Below are positions 21,622 to 63,994 of a stretch of 64,000 bases of DNA, one piece after another. The position numbers and the translations under genes are program-made. The DNA lies in NCBI GenBank assembly GCA_947495425.1, contig CANLYR010000011.1, positions 1 through 64,000 on the forward strand, given 5' to 3'. The first letter of the stretch is position 1, and each line of letters opens with the position of its first letter. The notes below the pieces were generated by a model. The model was given only the letters and a program-made list of their open reading frames with translations, did not search any database and was not told the origin of the DNA. Origin of the DNA: an uncultured Aquimarina sp. Its GTDB lineage: Bacteria; Bacteroidota; Bacteroidia; Flavobacteriales; Flavobacteriaceae.

Positions 21622-21720
21622 CTACTTTCTCATAGCATACTTACTGGCAGCAGGTAAATTTTTTAAAAAAATCTTTAGCGCCTTGAGGTCTAAGATCATA
21701 ATTCCATAAAATAATTTCAT
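21622..21720 (-). CDS. possible 32-aa small protein MKLFYGIMILDLKALKIFLKNLPAASKYAMRK
   Basis: ATG-initiated uninterrupted short ORF in otherwise unassigned DNA; amphipathic, basic C-terminus; below the ORF-track length cutoff. Confidence 0.35.
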   Translation of the reverse strand: MKLFYGIMILDLKALKIFLKNLPAASKYAMRK

Positions 21721-21886
21721 AAGCCTATTTTTTTAAGTGAAACGTATAAATATCCATTATTAACCTTAAGATACGATAAGATTTGGATTTAACCATATCA
21801 TAATCAAAGTTTTATAAAAATATTAAGAGGTGTTGAAATGTTAATGTATTGGACTATGCTTAGAGTTTTGAGTAGTAAAAAAATAA

Positions 21887-22030
21887 TCCCGAGTTGGGGC
21901 TCGGGACTTTGTCGATATTTTGGGGTATGAATTGGGGCTAACTCAAATATCTTGGGGTAATCAATGCACTCAAGGTAATTTCAAATTTGGGGCGAAATAC
22001 CAATAATGATTTCTTTAATTCTATACTACA
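21887..22030 (-). ncRNA. putative small RNA, copy 1 of tandem pair
   Basis: Minus-strand TACATTTG (22029-22036), conserved body, terminator stem TCCCGAG/CTCGGGA then ATTATTTTTTT. Confidence 0.55.
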
Positions 22031-22149
22031 AATGTAAGAAAAAATAGCCTACATGAACTTGTAAAAAGCAACAAATAATCGGTAAAAAGCAATTTATTAA
22101 CGATTAAGTGTATTTTTTTAGAGAATTTTTGAATAGATGTATAAAAAAA

Positions 22150-22287
22150 TCCCGAGAGGGGGCTCGGGACTTTTGTCGATATTTTGGGGATGAATTGGGG
22201 CTAACTCAAATATCTTGGCGTAATGTATTGCGGCTTTTCAATTTTGGTGCAAATTGACATTAATTTTTTCTTTAACTTTATATTACA
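22150..22287 (-). ncRNA. putative small RNA, copy 2 of tandem pair
   Basis: Minus-strand TACATTTG (22286-22293), conserved body, terminator stem then ATTTTTTTAT. Confidence 0.55.
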
Positions 22288-22419
22288 AATGTAAGACGTT
22301 TTCTTGTAAGTAAACTTGTAAAAATCAATAAAAAATCGGTATAATACATTTTTTTATCGATGAAATACATTTTTTTACAAATTTTATTAGTATTAAGTAT
22401 GTCTTCAAATGATAATAAG

Positions 22420-23922: not shown

Positions 23923-26900
23923 ATGAAATATATCACCTCGGTGCTTTTTGTGATTAACCTGTCAGTCAATGTTTCTGCTCAGCAATCTGCAATCTACACC
24001 AATGAATTAGTGCAGTATAACCAAGCACTTGCATTATACAATAATAAACAATTCTTGGCTGCTCAAAATCTTTTTGATAAGGTAAGGGATATGGTCGATG
24101 ATGAAAATATCGATGCCAATTGTTCGTATTATATCGCCAATTGTGCAGTTTGGTTAAATCAGAAAGATGCAGATCAATTACTAGAGCGTTTTGTAGTACA
24201 ATATCCTACAAGTATTAAACGCAATGCAGCATATCTTGATGCAGCTACCTATTATTTTGATAACGGAAAATATGCCTATGCACGCAAATGGTATGATAAG
24301 GTTGATGCATCTAATTTAAGTCGTAGCGAGAAAGAAAGATTCAACTTCAATAATGGGTATGCGTATTTCAAAATTCAACGATTTAATGAAGCAAAGAAGT
24401 TTCTAAATCAAGTACAAGATTCGCCTGAGTATGGAGCAAAAGCCAAATATTATCTCGGTTTTATAGCTTATGAAGGGGATAATTATCAAGAAGCCGACAA
24501 ACTATTTGACGAGGTTAAAGATTTAGATCAGTACAATAAAAACCTGTCCTATTTCCAGAGTGATATGAATTTTAAAGCAGGTGATTTTGAAGGCGCTATC
24601 AAAGAAGGACTCACACAATTACCAAAATCTAAACCTTCAGAAAAATCAGAATTAAATAAAATTATAGGTGAAAGCTATTTCAATCTTGGAAACTATGAAA
24701 AAGCAATTCCTTATCTCAAAGAATATAAAGGACGTAAAGGAAAATGGAACAATACGGATTATTACTACCTAGGCTATGCGTATTATAAGAAAGGAGAATA
24801 TGCAAATGCAATTTCTGAATTCAATAAAATTGTTGGCGGTCGCAATGCTACAGCACAGAATGCCTACTACCATCTTGCCGAATCATATTTGAAAACCGAT
24901 CAGAAACAACAGGCTCTAAATGCATTTAAGAATGCTTCAGAAATGGATTTTGAAGCCAAGATCAAGGAAGATGCATTGTATAATTATGCAAAGTTAAGTT
25001 ACGAAATTGGGAACTCATACGAGAGTGCCCCAAAGGTTTTACTTCGTTACTTAGATCAATATCCAAATACGGCGTTCGAGGAGGAAATCAAGGAACTATT
25101 GGTAAGCTCTTATATTACATCAAAAAATTATAAAGAAGCAATGGATCTTCTAGAGGGAAGTCGAAATTTTGCTGACAAAGAAGTGTATCAAAAAGTTGCC
25201 TATTATCGAGGGATAGAATTATATAATGAAAATAACTTAGCTGAAGCTATTATATATTTTAATAAGTCTTTAAAAGATCAGGTAAATCCTGATGTTACTG
25301 CCAGAGCGATCTATTGGAAAGCAGAGAGTCATTATTTACTTAACGACTTTGATGAAGCATTAATTGATTTTAAACAATTTCAGGGTAGTACTGGTGCTTC
25401 ATCTACTATAGAATACAGAGAGATTGATTATAATTTGGGATATACATATTTCAAACTAAAGCAATACGCACAAGCAGCTAAGTATTTTGAATCATTTTCT
25501 AAGAAAACCGATATAGACGATGCACGACAAACAGATGCATATCTTAGATTAGGAGACAGTCATTTTATTTCTAGTAAATACTGGCCGGCCATGGAAGCGT
25601 ATAATAAAGCTATTCAAAAAAATGGACCAGATTCTGACTACGCGCATTATCAAAAAGCAATCAGTTATGGTTTTGTAAATAAACATGATCAAAAGATCAA
25701 AGATCTTGAGCGGTTTTTATTAGAATATCCTAACTCTACCTATCGTGATGATGCCATGTTTGCGTTGGGTGATGTGTATGTGTCACAAAATAAGACACAG
25801 CGCGGTATCGATGCATATGACCGTTTGATTGGAGAGTTGCCCAGAAGCTCATATGTTCCCAAAGCATTACTAAAACAAGGACTCGTATTTTATAATAAAG
25901 ATCAGGGTAATAAAGCCTTATCAAAATTCAAAAAAGTAGCAGCAGAATACCCGGGAACAGACGAATCTATACAAGCGGTAAATACAGCTAGGCTGATCTA
26001 CGTAGATTTAGGAAGAACAGATGAATATGCATCTTGGGTAAAAGGACTAAGTTTTATAGATGTAAGTGATGCTGATTTGGATAATACCTCATATGAAGCT
26101 GCTGAGAAGCAATTTATAGAAAATAACGATACTGCCGCAATTAACGGATTTGAGAAATACCTTAGGGACTTCCCTAATGGGGCACATGCCTTAAAAAGTC
26201 ACTTCTATCTGGGACAAGTATACTTCAAAAAAGGAGATAAAGAAGCTGCCATACCACATTATGAATTTGTACTTCAAAAAGATAGAACAGAATTTACAGA
26301 ACAATCCTTAGCCAGATTATCTCAGATCTATCTGGAAAACCGTAATGATGAAAAAGCAATTCCTGTACTCGAACGATTAGAGCGTGATGCAGAGTATCCA
26401 CAAAATATTGTTTTTGCACAATCTAATTTGATGAAATCGTATTATCAATTACGCAATTATCAAAAAACTATTGAGTATGCAGATAAAGCACTGGCTAATC
26501 CCAAAATCCAGAATGATGTAAAAAGTGATGCACAACTATTTACAGCCAGAGCAGCGTTGCAAACAAATGACATGGCTCGTGCTAAAAGCGCGTATGCAGT
26601 AGTACAAAAAATAGCGACAGGAGAATTAGCCGCCGAGGCCTTGTATTACGAAGCATATTTTAAAAATGAAGAAGGAAAGTATAAAATTTCTAATGAAACG
26701 ATACAAAAACTATCCAAAGATTATCCGGGATATAGATTGTATGGTTCTAAAGGGTTGATACTTATGGCAAAAAATTTCTATGGGCTTAAGGATGCATATC
26801 AGGCAACCTATATATTAGAGAGTGTAATTAAAAACTTCTCTGATTTTCCTGATGTCGTTGATGAGGCCCAATCCGAACTCAAAAAGATTAAAGCCGAAGA

Positions 26901-63169: not shown

Positions 63170-63243
63170 GCCGATGTAGCTCAGCTGGCTAGAGCAGCTG
63201 ATTTGTAATCAGCAGGTCGTGGGTTCGAGTCCCTCCATCGGCT
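63170..63243 (+). tRNA. tRNA-Thr(TGT)
   Basis: Cloverleaf by eye; anticodon loop TTTGTAA; acceptor GCCGATG/CATCGGC. Confidence 0.95.
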
Positions 63244-63477
63244 CTTGAAATATTGAAATTTGCAAGGGAGTTTTCTAGTTTGAACTATGTTTAAGCTGTA
63301 CGAAAACTAGGGACGAGAAGTTTATCCTGAGCAATGTCGAAGGGAGTCCCTCCATCGGCTCTTGAAATATTGAAATTTGCAAAGGAGTTTTCTGGCTTGA
63401 AGTATGCTTGAGCTATACGAAAATTAGGGACGAAAAGTTTATCCTGAGCAATGTCGAAGGGATTCCCTCCATCGGCT
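63227..63477 (+). repeat. 117-bp-period tandem repeats carrying the tRNA-Thr 3' end
   Basis: GAGTCCCTCCATCGGCT at 63227 and 63344, GATTCCCTCCATCGGCT at 63461. Confidence 0.93.
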
Positions 63478-63601
63478 TAAAAAAGTTGAAATTTAGTAAA
63501 TTGTAAAGCTTTTTTGGTGAAATTTTGAATTGTGAAAAAAAACACTATTTTTGCACACTCAAATTTCATAAGTTCATATTGAAATTTTGAATATATTAAT
63601 C

Positions 63602-63683
<82 letters not shown>

Positions 63684-63726
63684 CAATTAATTTTAAAAAC
63701 ATAAATCAGAAATTCTGGTTTGTAAT

Positions 63727-63799
63727 GCGGGAGTAGCTCAGTTGGTAGAGCGTCAGCCTTCCAAGCTGAATGTCGCCAGTTCGAACCTGGTCTCCCGCT
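63727..63799 (+). tRNA. tRNA-Gly(TCC)
   Basis: Anticodon loop CTTCCAA; acceptor GCGGGAG/CTCCCGC. Confidence 0.95.
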
Positions 63800-63922
63800 C
63801 TCAACAGAGCTAATTTTGATGACTATACGTTAAAATTGGATTTTTAAAATAGCTATAATGATGAATTAGATTTCTTTCTAAGCAATGAAGGCATTCTGAT
63901 TTATCATTATACTTATTAAAAA

Positions 63923-63994
63923 GCCGGTGTAGCTCAGGGGTAGAGCGTTTCCTTGGTAAGGAAGAGGTCACGAGTTCAAATCTCGTCATTGGCT
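63923..63994 (+). tRNA. tRNA-Thr(GGT)
   Basis: Anticodon loop TTGGTAA; acceptor GCCGGTG/CATTGGC with G-U pairs. Confidence 0.93.

Follow-up and report, generated by a model that had tools for sequence, protein, structure and literature searches.

Two tandem units on the minus strand between typA and csaA, in a window of 64,000 nucleotides (the whole stretch of DNA analysed) from an uncultured marine Aquimarina sp., are read here as genes of an intergenic, trans-acting small RNA (sRNA) family of Aquimarina that is multicopy, occupies two loci and is controlled by a regulator, an interpretation that we hold with somewhat more than even confidence. The family probably acts as a regulatory RNA, since its members have in common repeated CCCC signals and one rigid control sequence. 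To our knowledge, few sRNA families have been described in Bacteroidota outside Bacteroides. No account of such RNAs in Aquimarina or flavobacteria was found in the open literature (subscription papers being outside the scope), and the family is apparently undescribed so far; multicopy regulated sRNAs are a known kind, and the present form looks new in Bacteroidota. Because the RNA is conserved, has redundant motifs and a defined operator, and occurs in tandem at two loci, both the action of a C-rich sRNA in Bacteroidota and the regulator that drives it become directly testable.

The tandem pair between typA and csaA

The two units extend over about 22293-22143 and 22036-21880 (Table 1). The tandem duplication that a preliminary description had proposed at this position is confirmed: the copies are offset by 257, 263 and 264 bp, and blastn aligns them at 81% identity over ~160 nt (E 8.8e-36). 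Beyond each -7 box the copies stay similar for a further ~75-100 bp upstream, and the duplication thus takes in the promoter as well. The box, which reads TACATTTG, and the TCCCGAG/CTCGGGA terminator with its U tract are present in each copy where they had been placed. Both predicted RNAs fold better than their dinucleotide shuffles, with z-scores of -3.1 and -3.9. Judged from its sequence, each unit would be a free-standing transcription unit made up of a repeat-array promoter, an RNA and an intrinsic terminator. From the gene order, the units are not a leader or a riboswitch, because directly downstream they meet the 3' end of typA and no sense gene.

Table 1. Predicted features of the two units in the window
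Feature	Position	Strand	Description
Repeat array, upstream unit	22294..22369	-	TTTCATCGAT, TATACCGAT, TTTTTACAAGT, in 20-21 bp steps
-7 box, upstream unit	22286..22293	-	TACATTTG
Predicted sRNA, upstream copy	22143..22280	-	~138 nt; start inferred 5-8 nt past the -7 box
Intrinsic terminator, upstream copy	22150..22169	-	TCCCGAG-CCCCCT-CTCGGGA + U tract, C-rich loop
Repeat array, downstream unit	22037..22112	-	TTAATCGTT, TTTTACCGAT, TTTTTACAAGT
-7 box, downstream unit	22029..22036	-	TACATTTG
Predicted sRNA, downstream copy	21880..22023	-	~144 nt, five C4 runs
Intrinsic terminator, downstream copy	21887..21906	-	TCCCGAG-CCCCAA-CTCGGGA + U tract, C-rich loop

Two further observations concern the rest of the window. 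A 32-residue frame on the minus strand (MKLFYGIMILDLKALKIFLKNLPAASKYAMRK, 21622-21720) lies between the sRNA pair and typA and is kept at equal length in 12 Aquimarina genomes; its variable sites number 11, 8 and 28 at the three codon positions, a distribution that suggests a real small protein. Four clustered tRNA genes occupy 63170-63994 on the plus strand.

RNA body, motifs and terminator

Across the family the predicted RNAs are 110-180 nt long (118-189 nt when counted from the -7 box), and they are rich in C runs. In 50 units there are 179 runs of at least four C vs a single run of at least four G, and the 3.6 C4 runs per unit compare with 2.1 in dinucleotide shuffles. The usual context of a C4 run is RCCCCAAA, a motif that occurs 0-7 times per RNA at irregular spacing; some members of the family conserve 15-19 nt around one such motif (TACCCCAAAATATCGAC).

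When 47 sequences were folded together with RNAalifold, the terminator alone was predicted, with double-sided, compensatory changes in 7 of its 10 pairs, and it is paired in 96% of cells across the homologues. The terminator loop is C-rich in the window's subgroup, whereas some other units lack this trait. Matters are different for the GATATTT/AAATATC hairpin of the preliminary description, which stands in the window's subgroup but not family-wide, being paired in ~70% of cells with its closing G-C broken in 28 of 41; a smaller hairpin, GAGTT/AATTC, is paired in 60%. The internal hairpins are a trait of the window's subgroup and not of the whole family. An Infernal scan with the Rfam 15 covariance models, Flavo-1 and other Bacteroidota motifs included, gave no match at gathering, and a relaxed scan returned chance matches.

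The earlier preference for a small RNA over a peptide is borne out by the wider set, in which promoter, C-rich motifs and covarying terminator are kept in the 50 units while no reading frame is common to them, just as none had been seen to survive in both tandem copies. It is true that copy 2 contains a short frame and that some frame of at least 15 codons can be found in 28 of the 50 units; however, an ATG frame of at least 10 codons is present in just 10, indels of any length separate the motifs, and the changes in the terminator are compensatory, all of which makes a leader peptide or small-protein gene very improbable. The units thus have the properties of an intrinsically terminated intergenic sRNA as far as sequence can tell, namely a putative promoter of their own, a covarying terminator and no conserved frame.

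Distribution in Aquimarina and a second locus

By blastn the unit was matched in 43 of 69 Aquimarina genomes, the weakest matches being short, and once the typA neighbourhoods of the remaining genomes had been read, the count rose to 50 units in 46 congeneric genomes. The units sit between typA and either csaA or ftsE and point to the typA 3' end; csaA is missing from the locus in many genomes that retain the RNA. At least five genomes (G000, G004, G020, G053 and G065) hold two units beside typA, and about 12 congeners, mostly with a more divergent TypA, have none in the typA neighbourhood. Within the window's own genome, blastn gave no convincing extra copies, and matches across the Flavobacteriaceae were generic promoter pieces. 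Duplication in tandem is what a mobile-element end or an inert repeat might also display, but related genomes hold the unit at one syntenic place adjoining typA, dispersed copies are absent from the own genome and the promoter geometry is rigid, which leaves that origin barely credible.

Two models, one of the promoter (R1) and one of the RNA (R2), were scanned over 400 genomes of Flavobacteriaceae. R1 scores reached at most 29 bits outside Aquimarina vs 55-68 inside, and R2 scores at most 46 vs 61-70. Those R2 matches outside the genus that were inspected proved to be ordinary terminators after genes, and the R1 matches were real-looking repeat pairs, but ahead of protein genes and not of sRNAs. 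Given these lower scores and the terminators among the R2 outsiders, the typA-side RNA appears to be restricted to Aquimarina. A pattern scan of named genomes also gave matches in unrelated phyla that were due to chance.

Moreover, a search with the repeat pattern revealed tandem C-rich units at a second place, between an nhaC-type antiporter gene and a membrane-protease-like gene. In 22 genomes that share a close nhaC orthologue, C-rich intergenic DNA is present there without exception, and 15 of them carry at least two units. Most of the nhaC-side units end in an AAGCCTC..GAGGCTT terminator whose loop is often C-rich. They are found in the own genome (contig C50, L232), at further loci (L221, L242) and also in some genomes that have no typA-side unit, e.g. 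G031 and G012. Since the typA pair is joined by the tandem units on contig C50, the own genome probably carries four such RNAs. The typA-side and nhaC-side units give no single clean alignment, and the alignment of the latter is highly variable; the two loci probably represent one family, on the basis of a common architecture and similar DNA repeats.

Promoter and candidate regulator

With the units aligned on the -7 box, three direct repeats precede it (TTTTATCGAT / TTTTACCGAT / TTTTTACAAGT, in steps of 20-21 and 21 bp), and the last begins 26 bp ahead of the TAYATTTG box in 38 of 39 scorable units. In 13 genomes, each RNA copy has one match to a pattern of the last two repeats, and there are hardly any other matches. 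A weak or absent -33 box had been named as the main caveat of the sRNA reading; the box is indeed absent, because the conserved repeat array occupies its position.

It could be argued that the DNA alone matters, the repeats regulating csaA or ftsE and the RNAs being by-products, all the more as similar repeat pairs precede protein genes in other Flavobacteriaceae. Against this, the repeats keep a fixed distance to a -7 box that points away from csaA, many genomes keep the RNA with no csaA at the locus, and the C-rich body and terminator are conserved, so that we see little chance of it.

LytTR-type regulators recognise repeats of 9-11 nt separated by spacers of 11-13 nt; for one of them, YpdB, the repeat is GGCATTTCAT with a period of 21 bp (PMC4847170). 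The present array falls within these ranges, the exact spacer depending on how the repeat unit is cut; it resembles the published operators in its ~10 nt direct repeats at 20-21 bp and in the likeness of GGCATTTCAT to TGYATTTTAT, and differs in having three repeats rather than two (PMC4847170). The own genome has 17 LytTR genes, some preceded by similar repeats. At L322 (contig C2, ~169.3-171 kb) rpsF is divergently oriented to two neighbouring LytTR response-regulator genes that resemble each other, and the DNA separating it from them holds a TTTTAACG/TTTTATCG repeat pair; another LytTR gene is preceded by repeats of this kind as well. In other genera a LytTR gene adjoins 1 of 28 R1 matches (L151). 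From the repeat spacing and the neighbourhood, it is plausible that a LytTR-type regulator controls the sRNA units. A response regulator, most likely of this type, would bind the repeats spaced at 20-21 bp and stand in for the absent -33 box in recruiting RNA polymerase, and the copies would be induced jointly through it.

Outside the genus, TGCATTTYATCGA-N8-TGCWTTTTATCGAT repeat pairs are found ahead of protein genes in other Flavobacteriaceae (L138-L165), several times with genes for an alpha/beta hydrolase and a small cysteine-rich protein next to them; by sequence they are likely a family-wide regulator site.

Mode of action and targets

The CCCC motifs, single-stranded in the body and in the terminator loop, would offer redundant contact sites, most likely as seeds for antisense pairing with a small number of mRNAs, the dosage being multiplied by copies and motifs. 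The proposal that paired copies act on the same targets fits this picture. Pairing with G-rich sites in mRNAs, suggested alongside, may occur but finds no support. Bacteroidota mRNAs mostly start without Shine-Dalgarno pairing. In 900 genes (1.26 Mb, about a quarter of the own genome), G4 runs are rarest directly before start codons, the preceding 25 nt are depleted in GGGG about three- to fourfold, and a G-rich target class at translation starts was looked for and is absent. A UUGGGG ahead of the TPR gene at 23923 was rejected as a target, not being conserved. Ranking of targets by duplex energy in this sample placed the native RNA slightly above shuffles but not above its reverse-complement control. 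As neither a G4 start-site class nor a ranking signal emerged, antisense action on few mRNAs, rather than on a general G-rich class, is ranked first and protein titration second.

Titration would make the family a sponge in the manner of CsrB, its CCCCAAA repeats sequestering a protein that binds RNA, for instance Rho, a cold-shock protein or an RRM protein like RbpB. A motif count that varies from 0 to 7 at irregular spacing, motifs that are kept while internal hairpins are not, and the lack of G-rich start sites would all suit a sponge, and the Bacteroides RRM protein RbpB does bind multicopy sRNAs in single-stranded regions (PMC11697453). However, we know of no C-binding protein here that would be titrated, and the TACCCCAAAATATCGAC stretch is longer than a short protein site needs; we therefore consider a sponge possible but rather unlikely. 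Bolder, and in our view distinctly unlikely, is a dedicated Aquimarina LytTR-type circuit that would chiefly produce a multicopy C4-motif RNA to titrate a C-binding protein, a Bacteroidota counterpart of Csr/Rsm.

Comparison with known systems

Overall, the best reading by analogy, with antisense action preferred, is that the family would work like Listeria LhrC or the streptococcal csRNAs. The csRNAs, from a different phylum, have CiaR sites and Shine-Dalgarno targets. As is proposed for the present units, a single response regulator, CiaR, governs several sRNAs that resemble one another (PMC3091779). LhrC1-5 of Listeria monocytogenes exist in several copies under the response regulator LisR, with redundant C-rich sites, the terminator loop among them, and with UCCC motifs that block Shine-Dalgarno sites (PMC4132741). 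Several copies and redundant C-rich sites, one of them in the terminator loop in the window's subgroup, recur here, and response-regulator control may do so too. Unlike LhrC, the present RNAs have CCCCAAA motifs (up to 7), a rigid triple-repeat promoter whose repeats look LytTR-like, and no known sequence homology. Nor did the quarter or so of the genome that was sampled show a G-rich class of sites ahead of start codons that would match Shine-Dalgarno binding.

CsrB/RsmZ are alike in their variable number of one short motif and, if it applies here, in response-regulator control; their motif is GGA and binds CsrA, whereas the conserved motif here is CCCC, with no known protein. Finally, FopS/GibS of Bacteroides, which are bound by RbpB, are likewise multicopy Bacteroidota sRNAs with a single-stranded 5' part and a terminator (PMC11697453). 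FopS, compared here by description, is ~65-70 nt long with canonical sigma-ABfr promoters and one R1 seed (PMC11697453), whereas the Aquimarina RNAs, at 110-180 nt, combine a repeat array lacking a -33 box with many C4 motifs.
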